Below, piece by piece: positions 37,680 through 46,797 of a stretch of DNA of 51,623 nt. Under the pieces are notes generated by a model. The model worked only from the letters and a program-made list of their open reading frames with translations. It was not told the origin of the DNA and made no database searches. Numbering within the stretch: position 1 is the stretch's first letter; every line of letters begins with the position of its first letter. The stretch lies in contig NZ_JAGDWX010000033.1 in NCBI RefSeq assembly GCF_023256195.1, positions 26,184-77,806 on the forward strand, given 5' to 3'. This DNA comes from Acidithiobacillus sp. Its GTDB lineage: Bacteria > Pseudomonadota > Gammaproteobacteria > Acidithiobacillales > Acidithiobacillaceae. A program made the translations under genes and the position numbers.

Positions 37680-38414
37680 CTACGAAGAGGCCGGGGTGTA
37701 AAATCCCGGCGCGTAACGTTGCAGATCATTGGCCGTGTCCTGGTGAGGACGGTCTTCTTGGGGACTTGCGGCTTCGGTTTTCTTGTCGTTGATGAGCAGG
37801 GCGCAGCGGCGCAAAAAATGCCCACTGCCACCATCGGGGCCCTTGCCGGCCATCTGGCAGCGCAGTTCGGCCACACTGGCCAGACGTCGGCCGCGGATTT
37901 CACGGCTGGGGTAGAGCAGGGTTTCCCCGGCAAAGCTCAGGATCCTGCTCTCCACCAATTTCCGCGCCTGCGCGCGCGCACGCCCGCGCAGGCGCCCATT
38001 GAGCCCATTGGCCAGCAGGGTGAGGCCGGTAAACAGACGATCCTCCCAGGCAAAGGCGACGGCGCAGGGCGTGAGCCCCGGAAGGTGTATCACCCGCAGA
38101 CGCTCTTCGCCAAAGTAGATCACGTCCCCATCCCGGACCCGCACATCGACGGCGTTGGAGCGCACCTCCTCGTGGGCGAGCAGGCGCGCTCCGTGGCTCT
38201 CGCGCAATGCCTGTGCGGCAGCGACGTGGCCCTCATCGTGGTGGGTCTGCATGCAATAGCGCAGGTGCAAACCGCGCTGCCGGGTGAAATCCTCCAACTC
38301 CTCTACCAGGGGCGGCAGCGGATCGATGATCACCGCCTCCCGGGTGACGGGATCGCCCAGAAGATAGGCAAGGGCGCCGATTCTGTCTCGGGTACACAAC
38401 TGTCTGAAGATCAT
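37680..38414 (-). CDS. MBL-fold protein, persulfide-dioxygenase-like but with degenerate metal site
   Basis: This 244-residue protein follows the ETHE1/persulfide dioxygenase/glyoxalase II outline: IFRQLCTRDRIGALAYLLGD, REAVIIDPLPPLVEEL and RLRVIHLPGLTP. However, the HxHxDH motif reads THHDEGH (His58, Asp60, Gly62, His63). The usual GHT histidine is Leu (PGLTP), and the TGD aspartate is Leu131 (FTGLTLL). Four of about six ligands are lost, so iron-dependent dioxygenase activity is doubtful. A regulatory, structural or sulfur-binding role is possible. It is the first gene of the cyd operon, behind a sigma54 promoter. Confidence 0.8.
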   Translation of the reverse strand: MIFRQLCTRDRIGALAYLLGDPVTREAVIIDPLPPLVEELEDFTRQRGLHLRYCMQTHHDEGHVAAAQALRESHGARLLAHEEVRSNAVDVRVRDGDVIYFGEERLRVIHLPGLTPCAVAFAWEDRLFTGLTLLANGLNGRLRGRARAQARKLVESRILSFAGETLLYPSREIRGRRLASVAELRCQMAGKGPDGGSGHFLRRCALLINDKKTEAASPQEDRPHQDTANDLQRYAPGFYTPASS

Positions 38415-38450
38415 GGTGGCCGCCTGCGTGGATGGACCCGCCCCTATATC

Positions 38451-38466
38451 AGCAATCGCCGTACCA
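38451..38466 (-). promoter_or_regulatory. Sigma54 promoter of the MBL-cydAB operon
   Basis: On the minus strand the sequence TGGTACGGCGATTGCT matches the -24/-12 consensus TGGCACG-N4-TTGCW at all but one base, with exact GG-N10-GC spacing. The predicted start near 38440 leaves a 26-base leader before the MBL ATG at 38414. The divergent gene encodes a sigma54 activator, which strongly supports the call. Confidence 0.85.
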
Positions 38467-38580
38467 GCGCGCAGAGGCCCCCGACTGGGGCGGGACCAAT
38501 GGTCATTTATCCATAAAAAACAATTGCCTGCGCACCAATTGCGCGGATGGGGACGGAACGGGGCAGCGCCGTGTCCTGGG

Positions 38581-38604
38581 GCGTCTGCCATTCGTGGCAG
38601 ACGC
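38581..38604. promoter_or_regulatory. Perfect palindrome, candidate activator binding site
   Basis: GCGTCTGCCA and TGGCAGACGC are 10-bp arms flanking TTCG. The centre is about 150 bases upstream of the predicted sigma54 start of the MBL operon, a typical enhancer distance. An AT-rich stretch (38505-38530) with two CAATTG copies lies between and might bend the DNA. The same palindrome could instead form an RNA hairpin in the regulator's leader. Confidence 0.5.
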
Positions 38605-38683
38605 GATCCGGCAGTTCCTGCTAGAATTGTCAGTATCAGGGAGAGCTGGGATCGACGACCCGGATTCGGGTGCGGGGGAGGGC

Positions 38684-40033
38684 ATGACCGAGTTGTTCGC
38701 GCAATTGCGTCCGGAGCTGACATCGCTCATGGATTGCTTTGCCACGCCCGCGGTGCTGCTGCGTCCCGACGGCACCGTCATCACCGCCAACCAGGCCTAC
38801 CGGCGGCGCTTTGGCGATGGCAAGCCCCTGCAAGGGCGCTCCTGCGACGGCATCATGGCCGCCGCCGGCTACGACTGCCACACCCAGGGCAACATCTGCC
38901 CGCTGGAGAGCTGTGGGCAGACGGGTCTGGAGCAGCACGTGCTGCACGTCCACGACCAGGGTGCGGTACAGATCGACCTCTACCCCATTCGCGACGATCA
39001 AGGGGTACCCCGCTATTTCCTGGAACTGCTCAGCCCACTGCTCAACAAAGGCGAAGAATCTTCCAGTATGGTGGGCAACTCCGCAGCGTGGCGGGAAGTC
39101 TTGCATCTGATCCGCCGCGCTGCCCCCAGCGATTCTGCTGTGCTGCTCCTGGGGGAGTCCGGGACGGGCAAGGAGTTGGCCGCCGCCGCCATCCACCGCG
39201 CCAGCCCCCGCAGCGCCGGCCCTTTTGTAGTACTGGACTGCTCCGGGCTATCGGAGACCTTGTTCGAGAGTGAGCTCTTCGGCCACGAGAAGGGTGCCTT
39301 CACCGGCGCCCACAGCCGCAAGATCGGTCTTGCAGAAGCGGCCAACGGCGGCACCCTCTTCCTCGACGAGGTGGGTGACATTCCCCTGGCGCTGCAGGTG
39401 AAGCTCCTGCGCCTTCTGGAAACCGGTCAGTTCCGGCGGGTTGGGGGTGTCGATCCCATACACTCCGACTTCCGACTCATCTCGGCAACCCACCGCGACC
39501 TGGAAAAGTTGGTGGCGGAGGAGCGTTTCCGGCGGGACCTCTACTACCGCATCAATATGTTCCCGATCTTCCTACCGGCCCTGCGGGAGCGGCGCGAGGA
39601 CATCGATGCCCTGGCCGAGGCGCTGCTGCACCGCTTGCCGGAGGGACGTCGCCTGCGTCTGCACCCCGATACCCTGGCCTGTCTGCGCAGTTACGATTAT
39701 CCCGGTAATATCCGCGAGTTGCGCAATATCCTGGGGCGCGCGGCGCTGCTGGCGGACGAGGTCTGGATCCTGCCGGAGCACCTTCCGCCCTATGTGCGGC
39801 AGGGCGAGATCCAGGCCACGTCGAGTCCTCTGGCCCAGAGTGCCAAGGGCAGCGACAAGGTCGAAATTCTGCCCTTGGCAGAGCTCGAGGCGCAGTACCT
39901 GCGCTGGGCCAGGGACAACTTTCCGGGTGATCGCCGCACGCTGGCGCGCCGCCTGGGCGTCAGCGAACGCACCCTCTATCGCAAGTTGGACCAGCTGGAC
40001 GAGCGTCAGAGCCATGCCCCGCAGCTGGCCTGA
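38684..40033 (+). CDS. fisR: FisR-like sigma54-dependent transcriptional activator with cysteine-rich PAS sensor
   Basis: This 449-residue bacterial enhancer-binding protein starts at the ATG after GGGGGAGG. Residues 1-120 are a PAS-like domain (LLRPDGTVITANQAYRR) containing Cys54, Cys65, Cys72 and Cys77 (RSCDG, YDCHTQGNICPLESC). Residues 127-360 are the AAA+ domain: Walker A GESGTGKE (157-164), GAFTGA (204-209) for sigma54 contact, and Walker B LFLDE. A Fis-type helix-turn-helix ends it (RRTLARRLGVSERTLYRKL). The cysteine spacing 11 and 7 matches what I recall for sulfane-sulfur sensing FisR. Targets are inferred from the divergent sigma54 promoter. Confidence 0.8.
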   Translation: MTELFAQLRPELTSLMDCFATPAVLLRPDGTVITANQAYRRRFGDGKPLQGRSCDGIMAAAGYDCHTQGNICPLESCGQTGLEQHVLHVHDQGAVQIDLYPIRDDQGVPRYFLELLSPLLNKGEESSSMVGNSAAWREVLHLIRRAAPSDSAVLLLGESGTGKELAAAAIHRASPRSAGPFVVLDCSGLSETLFESELFGHEKGAFTGAHSRKIGLAEAANGGTLFLDEVGDIPLALQVKLLRLLETGQFRRVGGVDPIHSDFRLISATHRDLEKLVAEERFRRDLYYRINMFPIFLPALRERREDIDALAEALLHRLPEGRRLRLHPDTLACLRSYDYPGNIRELRNILGRAALLADEVWILPEHLPPYVRQGEIQATSSPLAQSAKGSDKVEILPLAELEAQYLRWARDNFPGDRRTLARRLGVSERTLYRKLDQLDERQSHAPQLA

Positions 40034-42271: not shown

Positions 42272-42647
42272 ATCCACCCCCTGCGCCCTAGGATACGGTT
42301 CCGCAGCCTTTTGTCTCCCCTTTCTCTGTCAATGGCTTCATAACGGCTATTGATGGTGGTCTTGGAGCACTGTTGCCCGTTAGCGACAGTTTTGCCGGAA
42401 GATTCCGTCCGCGAACCTTTCGGTGTCCTGGCATCAAGACCGTCGTGTGAGCGTAAGCGCTGACTCTGCAAGGACTTACAGGCTCCAGGGCGCAGGCATC
42501 CTCCGTCGCCGGGACTCCACAGGGGATCGCCGCCCAAAAATCGGGGAAAGCGTCGGGGTGAAGCGACAGAATATCGGGCATTAACAAAAATACACAATAT
42601 AAAACATGCGATTATAAAATGGCACGCTGATTGCTTATTCACCGACC
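42272..42647. other. 376-base regulatory gap upstream of opgG
   Basis: No credible gene is seen. The part before the promoter is AT-rich (42580-42620). Two imperfect inverted repeats are visible: TCAATGGC/GCTATTGA (42329-42336 and 42346-42353) and ACTGTTGC/GCGACAGT (42369-42376 and 42383-42390), each with one mismatch. They lie about 230-310 bases upstream of the sigma54 start and could be activator sites. The second is followed by TTTT and could alternatively be a weak terminator. Confidence 0.4.
42620..42635 (+). promoter_or_regulatory. Perfect sigma54 promoter of the opgG operon
   Basis: TGGCACGCTGATTGCT matches the full -24/-12 consensus (TGGCACG-N4-TTGCW) with GG-N10-GC spacing. The -12 C lies at 42634, so the expected +1 is near 42646, only two bases before the ATG at 42648. 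Upstream AT-rich DNA would suit an IHF-type bend. Confidence 0.85.
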
Positions 42648-44198
42648 ATGAGAACGTGCAGCATTACTTACAGACTATCCGTTCGGCTTTGGCTCCTTGC
42701 GTGCCTGGGTCTCGGCCTGGGTTTTGCGACATCGGCCGAGGCCGATGCGGCCTTTGATTTTGCGCAGGTGCAGGCGCAAGCGGCGGCGTTGGCGGCGGCC
42801 CCTTATCATCCTGAGCCACTGCCGACGCCGGCCTTTCTCAAGGACCTCAGTCCCGATCAGTATGCCGAGATCCAGGACGTCAAGCCCCTGTGGTCCGATA
42901 CCGATTTGCCCTTTCAGGCCCAGTTCTACCTGCCGGGCTCCTATTTCCATCGGCCGGAGCAGATCTCGGTGGTGGATGCGGACGGTCAGGTGCAGCCCGT
43001 ACCCTTTCGTCTGGACGACTTCAGTTTCGGCGATCTTCACCCGCAGGGTCTGCCTGCGGATCTCGGCTATGCCGGTTTCCGTCTGCTCTATCCGCTGAAC
43101 ACACCGCCCTATCACAACGAATTCATTTCCTTCCTGGGAGGCACCTACTTTCGTGCGGTGGGTAAGGACGCGGTCTATGGCACCTCGGCGCGTGGTATCG
43201 GTATCGATACGGTGCAGCCTTCGGGGGAGATCTTTCCGTATTTCACCCACATCTGGCTGGTCAAGCCCAAGGCCGGCGCCAAGAGCATGACCGTGTATGC
43301 GCTGATGGATAGTTCCGTGGTGACAGGCGCCTACCGCTTCGTCATCACCCCGGGCGAGAGCACCACGGTAGCCGTGGAGTCGACCATCTATCTGCGTAAA
43401 CCGGTGCAGGTGCTGGAGTTGGCGCCTTTGACCAGCATGTTCTGGCATGGGCACGGTCGTGGCGTGGTGGCGGGGGACTGGCACCCGGCCCAGCACGACT
43501 CCAGCGATCTGGTCATGGCCAACGGCAACGGCGAGTGGATCACGCGGCCCCTGTCCAACCCCCTGCATATCCAGACCACCACCTACAGCATGGACAACCC
43601 GCAGGGTTTTGGACTGATTCAGGAGGACCGCGACTTCAGCGCCTACCAGGGTATCGATACCCAATATCAGAAGCGTCCCAGCGTCTGGGTGAGTCCCGAG
43701 GGAGATTGGGGCAAGGGCGAGGTGCGTCTCGTAGAACTGCCCACCAACAATCCGGACATGGACAACATCGATGCCTTCTGGGTGCCGGCGCAGGCGCCGA
43801 AGCCCGGGCAGCCTTACCACTTTGCCTACACCCTGCGTTTTTTTCTGGATAACCACGGCCTCATTCCGCTGGGTCATCCCGTCGCCACCTATCTGGGTTA
43901 CGACGTCAAGGATCCCAGCATTCGCGATGTCGTCATCGATTTCTCTGGGGGCGCGCTGCGGGATCTTCCCGGTCACATGCCCGTGCAGGTGCATCTGACG
44001 GCGGACCATGGGGCCAAGATCCTTGCGCAGGATTTGCAGTGGGACAAGGACGGACATTTTTGGCGGGTCAAGGCAAGGATTCAGCCTGCTGCCGGCGTAC
44101 CCAGCAATGTTCGTTGTTTTCTCAGTCTCGATGGCCAGGTCATGAGCAATACCTGGACCTACCTACTACACCGTACCGAGGTACAAGGAGGGCAGTGA
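42648..44198 (+). CDS. opgG: Periplasmic glucan biosynthesis protein OpgG/OpgD
   Basis: This 516-residue exported protein has a signal peptide (RLSVRLWLLACLGLGLGFATSAEA, cleaved after about residue 33). The MdoG domain begins DFAQVQAQAAALAAAPYHP and includes FYLPGSYFHRPEQI, FISFLGGTYFRAVGKDAVYGTSARG and FWVPAQAPKPGQPYHFAYTL. It shapes and branches osmoregulated periplasmic glucans exported by OpgH. It heads a three-gene unit driven by the sigma54 promoter. No upstream ribosome site fits the predicted start point. A stop-start TGATG joins it to the next gene. Confidence 0.93.
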   Translation: MRTCSITYRLSVRLWLLACLGLGLGFATSAEADAAFDFAQVQAQAAALAAAPYHPEPLPTPAFLKDLSPDQYAEIQDVKPLWSDTDLPFQAQFYLPGSYFHRPEQISVVDADGQVQPVPFRLDDFSFGDLHPQGLPADLGYAGFRLLYPLNTPPYHNEFISFLGGTYFRAVGKDAVYGTSARGIGIDTVQPSGEIFPYFTHIWLVKPKAGAKSMTVYALMDSSVVTGAYRFVITPGESTTVAVESTIYLRKPVQVLELAPLTSMFWHGHGRGVVAGDWHPAQHDSSDLVMANGNGEWITRPLSNPLHIQTTTYSMDNPQGFGLIQEDRDFSAYQGIDTQYQKRPSVWVSPEGDWGKGEVRLVELPTNNPDMDNIDAFWVPAQAPKPGQPYHFAYTLRFFLDNHGLIPLGHPVATYLGYDVKDPSIRDVVIDFSGGALRDLPGHMPVQVHLTADHGAKILAQDLQWDKDGHFWRVKARIQPAAGVPSNVRCFLSLDGQVMSNTWTYLLHRTEVQGGQ

Positions 44199-44716
44199 TG
44201 TATACCGATCATTGGAATCTGGGGGTCAACCCGGAGCATGCGCCGAGGGATCTCGCGGAACCGATGCCGGCTGAGTCCTTGCCAGCGCCGTGGCAGGTCC
44301 TGGCGCGCCTGGACCTCTATCTGCAGCGGCTTGCCCTGACAGATGCCCAGCGACTGTGGTTGCGCACCCAGGTGCTCAACCAGCTGGCGCAGACGCCCAC
44401 CATGGACGAGGCGGGCGCGCTCTCCTTCGCTTTCGCCAAACTGCAGCAGTCCCTCGGGACCCTGAGCGACGGTGATGAGCTGGAAGCGCGGCTCGGCCTG
44501 GCCTTGGGATCCGCTTTGGCGGGCGCCGGCGAATTGGGCAAGAGCCCATCGCGTTGGTTACGGGAGCAGATGCAGCCGCCGGTGCAGCGGCAGACCATGG
44601 CCTCCCTGCCCATGCGGCGCTCCTGGCGCGCTCTGTTCGGGCGGCTCTGGCAACGCCTGCGTGTCGGCCAAGGTAAGACGCGGGTGCGTCCAGCCCTGAG
44701 CGGGGAGATCCGTTGA
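44198..44716 (+). CDS. Soluble protein between opgG and opgH, likely detached OpgH N-terminal region
   Basis: This 172-residue, helix-rich cytoplasmic protein has no membrane segment. It starts at an ATG overlapping the opgG stop by one base and ends in a TGATG overlap with opgH. Its C-terminus (PVQRQTMASLPMRRSWRALF) recalls the Arg/Pro segment before the first helix of E. coli OpgH. OpgH here is about 150 residues shorter than E. coli OpgH at exactly that end. I infer that the N-terminal cytoplasmic domain is encoded separately; homology is weak by eye. Confidence 0.6.
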   Translation: MYTDHWNLGVNPEHAPRDLAEPMPAESLPAPWQVLARLDLYLQRLALTDAQRLWLRTQVLNQLAQTPTMDEAGALSFAFAKLQQSLGTLSDGDELEARLGLALGSALAGAGELGKSPSRWLREQMQPPVQRQTMASLPMRRSWRALFGRLWQRLRVGQGKTRVRPALSGEIR

Positions 44717-46797
44717 TGAGTGCCACCAGCCCCCTGTGGCAGCGTTTCAGCCAGAGTCGCCGACGCTGGTTGACGGCGCTCATCGTGCTGCCCGCCGCCA
44801 TTCTGGGACTGGTGCTGCATCACTTCTTGGTCAATGACCTGCCGCTTGGCCTGGAAATTCTGACCCTGACCGTCTTCGTCCTGCTCTTTGCCTGGATTTC
44901 GGCCGGGTTCTGGACGGCGGTCGTGGGCTTCCTGTTGCTGGTGCGTGCGCGAGGCGACACCGTCCCGGGAGCGCCGGAGGCCCGCCGTCAAGCGCCACGC
45001 CCTGGAACCCGGGTGGCCGTTCTCATGCCCATCTATAACGAGGATGTGGCACGAGTTGCTGCGGGGTTGCAGGCGACCTATCGCTCCCTGGAACGGGCGG
45101 GGGCTCTGCAGTATTTCGAGTTCTTTATCCTCAGCGACACCCGCGACCCGGCCGTCTGGCTGCGAGAAGAGCTAGCTTGGTCAACCCTGTGTCAGCAGTT
45201 GGACGCCTTTGGGCGCATCCACTACCGTCGTCGCCCCGTCAACAACAAGGCCAAGAGCGGCAATGTCGCCGATTTCTGCCGGCGCTGGGGCAAGGCCTTC
45301 GAGTACATGGTGGTGCTGGACGCCGATAGCGTCATGAGTGGTGAGACCCTCTACCAGATGCTGGAGATGATGGAGGGGAACCCGCAGGTGGGTATCCTCC
45401 AGACCAATCCCGTGGCGGTGAACCGCGAAACCCTCTATGCGCGGCTGCAGCAGTTTGCCCAGCAGCTCTACGGCCCGCTCTTCAGCGCCGGCCTTCGTTT
45501 CTGGCAGCTGGGTGACGGCCACTACATCGGCCATAATGCCATGATTCGCACCGCACCCTTTACGGAATTCTGTGCCCTGCCGGTACTGCCGGGCAAGGCT
45601 CCCCTCGGCGGCGCACTCCTCAGCCATGACTTTGTCGAGGCGGCGCTCATGGCGCGAGCCGGCTGGGAGGTCTGGTTCCTGCCGGAGCTTGGTGGCAGCT
45701 ACGAGGAGGTACCCCCGACCCTGCTCGATGACCTCAAGCGCGATCGTCGCTGGGCGCAGGGGAATCTGCAGCATCTGCGCCTCTTGGCGGGTGAGGGGCT
45801 GCAGTCGGCCCATCGTTTCCTGTTCATCAACGGGGCCATGTCCTTTCTCGCAGCACCCCTGTGGGGGCTCTTTCTCTGTCTCGGCGCGCTCGCGTCCTGG
45901 CAGATGTGGCGACAGGGCAGCCTTGCCGATCCTCTCGCCTGGACGGGTTCCGGCGACGGTGATCCCCTGCCGCTGTGGCTGATCGGTATCACCGTCCTCT
46001 TCCTGCTTGGACCCAAGCTCCTGGCCGTGCTCTGGATTGCTTGGCGCGGTGCGGGGCGACAGTTTGGCGGTCTGCCCCGATTGCTCCTCAGCATGGTCCT
46101 GGAAAGCGTCTTTTCCATCCTCATGGCGCCGGTACGGATGGTCTTTCACAGTCTGTTCGTGATTCAGACCCTGCGTGGGCGCAGCGTACAGTGGGGTGCC
46201 CAGGTGCGGGAGGATGCCGAGACCAGTTGGACTACGGCTTGGCAGACCTTTGGCTGGTGCACGGCAGCGGGAGTCGGTGTCGCCGCCCTCGTTTACCCCT
46301 TTGTGGGTGGCTGGCACTTCCTCTGGCTCTTGCCGGTGGTAGGCGGCCTCGCTCTGGCCGTGCCTCTGGCCGCCTGGACTAGTCGGCCATCCTGGGGCCG
46401 CTGGGCACGTGCCCACGGCCTTTTCCTGATCCCGGAGGAGGTACAGCGGCCGCGGGAACTGCTGGATCTGGACGCTGGTGTCGCCCATGCGCTGCCCCGC
46501 TTTGCCGGTGATGCCTTTGTGGAGGCCGTTGTCGATCCCCGCTTCAATGCTCTGCACAGTGCTTTGCAGCGCGATCGCAGTGGTCTGTGGGGACGGTGTG
46601 CCGGACTGGTGCACAAGGCCTTGGCCGAGGGTCCCGGGTGCTTGAGTCGACGGGAGCGGAACCTTATCCTGAGCGACAGGCAGTCCATGTTGACCTTGCA
46701 CCGCGCGGTCTGGTCTCTGCAAGATCCGCAGCAACTGGCGGCCTGGGGGCTGGGGCGCGACCCTGGCGATGGTCGGTGGGCGCCCAGCGAGCGCTGA
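44716..46797 (+). CDS. opgH: Glucan glucosyltransferase OpgH, lacking the N-terminal cytoplasmic domain
   Basis: This 693-residue GT2 glycosyltransferase makes and translocates the beta-1,2-glucan backbone. Helices 1 and 2 lie at about 19-38 and 50-76. The catalytic domain has VAVLMPIYNED (about 100-110), DADS (202-205), SHDF (303-306) and RDRRW (342-346). Four to six helices follow between about 360 and 580. E. coli OpgH has about 847 residues; the missing N-terminus corresponds to the upstream 172-residue gene. I use the ATG at 44716 rather than the TTG at 44713. Confidence 0.92.
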   Translation: MSATSPLWQRFSQSRRRWLTALIVLPAAILGLVLHHFLVNDLPLGLEILTLTVFVLLFAWISAGFWTAVVGFLLLVRARGDTVPGAPEARRQAPRPGTRVAVLMPIYNEDVARVAAGLQATYRSLERAGALQYFEFFILSDTRDPAVWLREELAWSTLCQQLDAFGRIHYRRRPVNNKAKSGNVADFCRRWGKAFEYMVVLDADSVMSGETLYQMLEMMEGNPQVGILQTNPVAVNRETLYARLQQFAQQLYGPLFSAGLRFWQLGDGHYIGHNAMIRTAPFTEFCALPVLPGKAPLGGALLSHDFVEAALMARAGWEVWFLPELGGSYEEVPPTLLDDLKRDRRWAQGNLQHLRLLAGEGLQSAHRFLFINGAMSFLAAPLWGLFLCLGALASWQMWRQGSLADPLAWTGSGDGDPLPLWLIGITVLFLLGPKLLAVLWIAWRGAGRQFGGLPRLLLSMVLESVFSILMAPVRMVFHSLFVIQTLRGRSVQWGAQVREDAETSWTTAWQTFGWCTAAGVGVAALVYPFVGGWHFLWLLPVVGGLALAVPLAAWTSRPSWGRWARAHGLFLIPEEVQRPRELLDLDAGVAHALPRFAGDAFVEAVVDPRFNALHSALQRDRSGLWGRCAGLVHKALAEGPGCLSRRERNLILSDRQSMLTLHRAVWSLQDPQQLAAWGLGRDPGDGRWAPSER

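Follow-up and report, generated by a model that had tools for sequence, protein, structure and literature searches.

Within the stretch of 51,623 nucleotides of Acidithiobacillus sp. DNA analyzed here (hereafter the window), we found that opgG, which codes for a periplasmic glucan biosynthesis protein, is preceded by a sigma54 promoter whose genuineness we regard as near certain. Based on the sequence of this promoter region and its retention in related genomes, we propose that transcription of opgG is under the direct control of the response regulator GlrR and sigma54 and yields an mRNA whose leader measures 0-3 nt and which would be translated as a leaderless message, a proposal in which we place considerable, if incomplete, confidence. 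All parts of this arrangement are of known kinds; what is new is their conserved combination. The features concerned are collected in Table 1, and published work is cited by PMC identifier.

Table 1. Features of the opgG promoter region and operon, in window coordinates
Feature	Position	Strand	Remarks
Distal inverted repeat TGTTGCCCGTTAGCGACA	42371..42388		Probable second GlrR-type site, 249 bp 5' of the -24 element
Proximal inverted repeat CGTCGGGGTGAAGCGACA	42551..42568		Probable upstream activator site (UAS) of a GlrR/QseF-type enhancer-binding protein; conserved in 29/29 genomes
A+T-rich spacer between proximal repeat and promoter	42569..42619	+	Weak IHF-like matches
Weak sigma70-like match TACACA-N18-TAAAAT	42591..42620	+	9/12; possible alternative or basal promoter
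Sigma54 -24/-12 element TGGCAC-N5-TTGCT, TGGCACGCTGATTGCT	42620..42635	+	Pattern scan, family conservation
Predicted transcription start zone	42645..42648	+	42646 by the -12 rule; 42647 by glmY geometry; should initiation favor a purine, 42645 or 42648 (the latter being the A of ATG)
opgG (mdoG), periplasmic glucan biosynthesis protein	42648..44198	+	516 aa; Pfam MdoG PF04349, E 5e-166
ORF between opgG and opgH	44198..44716	+	172 aa; without Pfam match
opgH (mdoH)-like glucosyltransferase	44713..46797	+	Glycosyltransferase family 2 domains

A sigma54 promoter conserved across the Acidithiobacillaceae

The earlier note on this DNA had claimed a full-consensus sigma54 element ahead of opgG, and this is exactly what a pattern scan returns: TGGCACGCTGATTGCT, a perfect -24/-12 element with the GG at -24 and the GC at -12 that mark sigma54 promoters, lies 12 nt 5' of the opgG ATG and is the sole zero-mismatch instance of TGGCAC-N5-TTGCT in the window. 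With equal base frequencies, the chance expectation for its 11 fixed bases on both strands of 51.6 kb is approximately 0.025, and across the whole genome TGGCAY-N5-TTGCW occurs at 11 sites as opposed to a single site for the reversed-pattern control. When up to two mismatches are admitted the window has 19 sigma54-like sites versus a mean of 16.7 in shuffled sequences, that is, no window-wide excess. This last comparison is what favors the view that the match arose by chance or is silent and that opgG depends on an ordinary sigma70 promoter; however, the element, the repeat upstream of it and both spacings are kept in 29/29 genomes while neighboring bases drift, leaving that view only a vanishingly small likelihood. 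A chance match of the -24/-12 element was rejected on this conservation.

The family sample comprises 29 genomes from four genera, some of them incomplete, each represented by its best opgG match. Upstream of every one of these matches we observed the element with at most two mismatches, with the in-frame ATG following at 11 nt in 19 genomes and at 12 nt in the other 10, spacings being counted to the ATG rather than to the nearest in-frame ATG, GTG or TTG; the opgG start codon is ATG in all 29. A repeat of the form GTCGGG-N5-GCGAC stands upstream of the element in every genome as well, at a distance of 68 bp in 13, 69 bp in 15 and 70 bp in one. The same layout of element, ATG and repeat recurs in 21 of 22 public opgG loci, a second collection whose species overlap with the first, and three of these loci (L015, L019 and L022) have an additional in-frame ATG 2 nt after the element. 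The exception, L021, has the least similar opgG (63%) and neither element nor repeat. By eye, a TTGCT can be seen there 11 nt before the ATG, but no -24 GG at the right distance; its promoter region is possibly a decayed or incipient form. A class-wide search with a strict pattern combining repeat, element and ATG spacing retrieved 4 of 369 genomes, namely two family members at opgG, the only two that the sample contained, and two others; looser versions of the pattern may exist elsewhere.

Mean pairwise identity is 0.91 over the 11 fixed bases of the element and 0.80 over the proximal repeat, and falls to 0.36 in the 11 nt before the ATG, 0.34 in the N5 and 0.31 in the 50 nt upstream of the repeat. 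Thus, the segment between element and ATG drifts in sequence but not in length, which suggests that the interval separating the -12 element from the ATG is constrained. Sigma54 control of opgG, likewise put forward in the earlier note, is strongly supported by the retention of the element in 29/29 genomes and, at a fixed position upstream, of a repeat of a type to which sigma54 activators bind.

Inverted repeats and the predicted activator

A candidate upstream activator site is recognizable in the repeat 68-70 bp 5' of the element in 29/29 genomes, together with a more distal repeat. Published descriptions give TGTN12ACA as the QseF consensus (PMC6075780) and TGTCN10GACA as the GlrR/QseF site (PMC8745638). 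In the window the proximal copy reads CGTC-N10-GACA and the distal copy TGTT-N10-GACA, each one base off TGTC-N10-GACA; the distal copy fits TGTN12ACA, and full TGTC-N10-GACA matches occur in relatives, the perfect form being absent from the proximal repeat in most species as it is in the window. Family members are exemplified by TGTCGGGATTAAGCGACA for the proximal and TGTCGCCAAAAGGCGACA for the distal repeat.

Measured against TGTCGC-N6-GCGACA, from which the window's distal repeat deviates by one mismatch, the best match beyond -90 has at most three mismatches in 29/29 genomes (zero or one in 10, two in one and three in 18), as opposed to 75 of 580 shuffled controls. These matches lie at -249 to -255 in 21 genomes, at -216/-217 in five, at -268/-269 in two and at -185 in one. 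Hence, two activator sites, one proximal and one distal, seem to be present at opgG. The A+T-rich spacer between the proximal repeat and the promoter includes an A conserved 19, 18 and 17 bp before the element in 25, 29 and 22 of the 29 genomes, respectively; its IHF-like matches, equalled in 4 of 200 mononucleotide shuffles, are suggestive only of an IHF site.

The genome (1.98 Mb) encodes RpoN, detected as one DNA-binding domain match (E 3.1e-70), and nine strong sigma54 activator domains. Among its activators is an orthologue of GlrR, 58% identical to the E. coli protein over 426 aa, whose best NCBIfam model is GlrR itself (622.9 bits, under the cut-off of 763). Its gene, located elsewhere in the genome (G000:C9), lies downstream of a histidine kinase recognized by Pfam and of a small ORF that by eye resembles a lipoprotein, an order like that of glrK-qseG-glrR in E. 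coli. The orthologue is at least 86% identical in 28 of the 29 family genomes, with one copy partial and one split over two contigs. In four genomes (G002, G008, G013 and G015) we further observed GTCGG-N6-GCGAC 78-81 bp upstream of a sigma54 element, before a small gene that adjoins the kinase-GlrR genes. This combination of repeat and sigma54 element ahead of the kinase-GlrR genes ties this kind of repeat to GlrR; the outer bases of these repeats differ from TGTC...GACA. A survey of Acidithiobacillia sigma factors published in 2025 describes two groups of GlrR orthologues (PMC12194929), and the terms 'opg', 'mdo' and 'glucan' are absent from its main text.

Taken together, the sequence evidence suggests that control of opgG by GlrR is likely and that a GlrR/QseF protein is the most likely activator. 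The conserved promoter could instead be driven by a different one of the nine activators. Among these, L044 is also GlrR-like, sharing 49% identity with the E. coli protein, and could bind in place of the main GlrR. Moreover, the main GlrR orthologue was not found in the 91% complete G023 assembly, though this genome keeps the repeats. The close match of the repeats to the published GlrR/QseF consensus and the similar repeat preceding the kinase-GlrR genes in four genomes nevertheless speak for GlrR, and we judge a different activator to be unlikely while granting it a real chance.

Transcription start and the leaderless reading

Upstream of the opgG ATG the reading frame runs back to a TAA stop at 42615 with no other start before it, and after codon 1 no ATG, GTG or TTG occurs in frame before codon 41 (GTG), so the ATG at 42648 is the only plausible opgG start; a misannotated start codon was rejected for the same reason. 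Counting the C of TTGC (42634) as -12 places the predicted start at 42646. The predicted transcription start at about 42646, the ATG at 42648 and the lack of a close downstream in-frame start that the earlier note had given therefore all hold; its leaderless reading gains support as a prediction from the spacing of 11-12 nt, the poor Shine-Dalgarno sequences, the pyrimidine before the ATG, the long leaders of related promoters and the geometry of glmY, as detailed below.

The E. coli glmY element reads TGGCAC-N5-CTGCA, and the annotated +1 of this gene, an A preceded by CC, follows the CTGCA by 11 nt. In 19 of the 29 genomes the opgG ATG has its A at just this distance, and in 10 the A is one nucleotide further. 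A pyrimidine just before an A favors initiation on the A, and the base preceding the opgG ATG is a pyrimidine in all 29 genomes (C in 26), which would suit a start on the A. In Campylobacter, 8-13 nt separate the end of the sigma54 element from the start (PMC3847290). The spacing of the element and the geometry at glmY together predict a leader of 0-3 nt, which we consider likely for the opgG mRNA.

No clear Shine-Dalgarno sequence precedes the opgG ATG in the window. Across the family, 7 of 29 opgG genes have a Shine-Dalgarno core of at least 4 nt, none longer than 4 nt; of the two references used, which gave 4/29 and 7/29, the latter is the one applied to the comparison families below.

Two other gene families with a comparable promoter arrangement provide a contrast. 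One codes for a small exported protein rich in Ala, Lys and His (6 loci: L161 on G000:C28, and L148-L152 among them), and the other for a conserved protein of about 71 aa with LLAALRRVR near its start (8 loci: L027 on G000:C18, L117, L154-L158 and L162). Both have a sigma54 element with a GTC-N10-GAC site located 78-82 bp 5' of it, and the window's genome has one member of each (L161 and L027). In 14/14 of these loci, which are those met during the analysis rather than a full census, the element lies 33-74 nt from the ATG, so that the leaders should be about 22-63 nt long, and there is a Shine-Dalgarno core of at least 4 nt. The same kind of promoter module thus appears to have ordinary leaders elsewhere and none at opgG. 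The protein of about 71 aa is a possible further GlrR target. We also noted that the Ala/Lys/His-rich protein gene adjoins the kinase-GlrR genes in four genomes.

Additional evidence comes from further opgG matches, ten in all (50-56% identity), in nine genomes of a single genus. Nine of these second copies were analyzed (L137-L145), L146 being cut by a contig end and left out. Eight of the nine have an element with at most three mismatches whose distance to the ATG is 11 or 12 nt. Between -204 and -210, seven of these eight show TGTC-N10-GACA and the remaining one CGTC-N10-GACA; in L140 the repeat is present and no element occurs near the start. The ATG spacing is hence retained while the activator site sits elsewhere.

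Could such spacing be a general habit of sigma54 promoters in this family? Sigma54-like sites 11-12 nt before a start number 52 in the family, made up of 25 at opgG, four at second copies and 23 others; against these 23, roughly 20 would be predicted given the 275 sites found at 28 other distances (52, 25, 4, 327 and 275 are totals summed manually over per-genome tables). In the lack of a clear excess beyond opgG and its second copies, a general habit was rejected.

We consider the leaderless reading of opgG to be well supported as a prediction because the 11-12 nt spacing, the weak or absent Shine-Dalgarno sequence, the pyrimidine in 29/29 genomes, the long spacings in the two other families and the glmY geometry all agree with it. 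The rival reading takes the sigma54 promoter to be real and the leaderless form to be minor, with a leadered sigma70 transcript supplying most of the translation, or with the sigma54 start several bases earlier. The weak sigma70-like match listed in Table 1 is in keeping with it, as are the overlapping weak sigma70 promoter of glmY, a known GlrR target (PMC6075780), and the 370 bp that separate opgG from the divergent upstream ORF. On the other hand, conservation just 5' of the proximal repeat is low (0.31 pairwise identity), and a longer leader ending at the same ATG would still be without a good Shine-Dalgarno sequence in most species; accordingly, we regard a mainly leadered supply as rather improbable and favor the near-leaderless opgG message.

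Proposed mechanism and operon organization

In the mechanism we envisage, a GlrR/QseF-type response regulator would be phosphorylated upon an envelope signal and would then bind the proximal and distal repeats (42551-42568 and 42371-42388), IHF perhaps bending the A+T-rich spacer between repeat and promoter. GlrR would drive the ATP-dependent opening of the element at 42620-42635 by RNA polymerase-sigma54, RNA synthesis would begin on the opgG ATG's own A or no more than about 3 nt away from it, and the near-leaderless message would be translated from its 5'-terminal AUG. We infer, rather than observe, the binding of GlrR to the repeats, the exact start, leaderless translation and the inducing signal.

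We further posit, with somewhat less assurance than for this mechanism though still leaning in its favor, that a GlrR-controlled sigma54 promoter starting on the opgG AUG has been fixed family-wide, and that it represents a selected leaderless architecture together with a rewiring to direct GlrR control of glucan synthesis that does not pass through glmY and rpoE. The case for selection draws on the diverged second opgG copies, in which the ATG spacing is retained even with the GlrR-type site displaced to about -205.

The opgH-like gene is probably in the same operon as opgG, and the sigma54 promoter probably also serves both it and the 172-aa ORF. This ORF runs into the beginning of the one for the OpgH-like glycosyltransferase, and it may contain the counterpart of the N-terminal part of E. 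coli OpgH.

Comparison with known systems

The closest parallel to the opgG promoter is that of E. coli glmY, where TGTC-N10-GACA sites, three in number and one of them TGTCGCCAGAAAGCGACA, lie upstream of TGGCAC-N5-CTGCA, with activation by GlrR/QseF and assistance by IHF. Yet glmY drives a small RNA from three sites, whereas opgG is a coding gene with two sites seen. A search for GlmY was positive in the E. coli control and recovered it in 0/29 family genomes, in many of which no more than 67 of the first-look candidates were scored.

In E. coli, GlrR/QseF activates glmY and rpoE (PMC6075780), and mdoGH appears in a table of the sigma-E regulon (PMC2731931); GlrR could thus reach E. coli mdoGH indirectly. 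The same pathway genes are listed under sigma-E there and would, by our proposal, be under sigma54 here, where the link to GlrR would be direct. In A. ferrooxidans, MdoG protein and mRNA rise with copper, and an ORF lies between mdoG and mdoH, like the 172-aa ORF here (PMC6070983); neither a promoter nor a regulator is named for mdoG in the available text of that study.

Leaderless mRNAs of Sinorhizobium, Bradyrhizobium and Campylobacter start at or beside the start codon (PMC3616915, PMC4842269, PMC3847290). Those of Campylobacter and Bradyrhizobium have -10 boxes of the sigma70 type (PMC3847290, PMC4842269), unlike the sigma54 element of opgG, and the passages considered from the three papers report no link between leaderless mRNAs and sigma54. 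Of the Campylobacter leaderless genes, few (3 of 23) are shared with Helicobacter, according to the portion of PMC3847290 available. In this literature, as far as its accessible text extends, leaderless messages are transcribed from sigma70-type promoters or are little conserved between species. We found no description of a leaderless sigma54 opgG in the retrieved literature on opgG/mdoG, sigma54, GlrR/QseF and Acidithiobacillus, as covered by main texts and a minority of subscription papers.

If our reading is correct, a stress-switched sigma54 promoter with a leaderless appearance in 29/29 genomes would make selection for a leaderless message directly testable, candidate selective reasons being escape from Shine-Dalgarno competition or from small-RNA control under envelope stress. 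The proposed GlrK-GlrR regulon of these biomining acidophiles would comprise opgG and the two small proteins described above, and may be the way in which copper brings about the published rise in MdoG.

A divergent hydrolase-activator pair

Elsewhere in the window we noticed a gene for an MBL-fold hydrolase (37680-38414, minus strand), identified by Pfam as Lactamase_B, with GloB as its best NCBIfam match, below cut-off. A sigma54 element with one mismatch, TGGTACGGCGATTGCT, occurs at 38451-38466 on the minus strand, 36 nt before the likely start of this gene (38414). Divergent from it is a gene for a Cys-containing sigma54 activator (38432-40033, plus strand), and the two may constitute a regulator-target pair.
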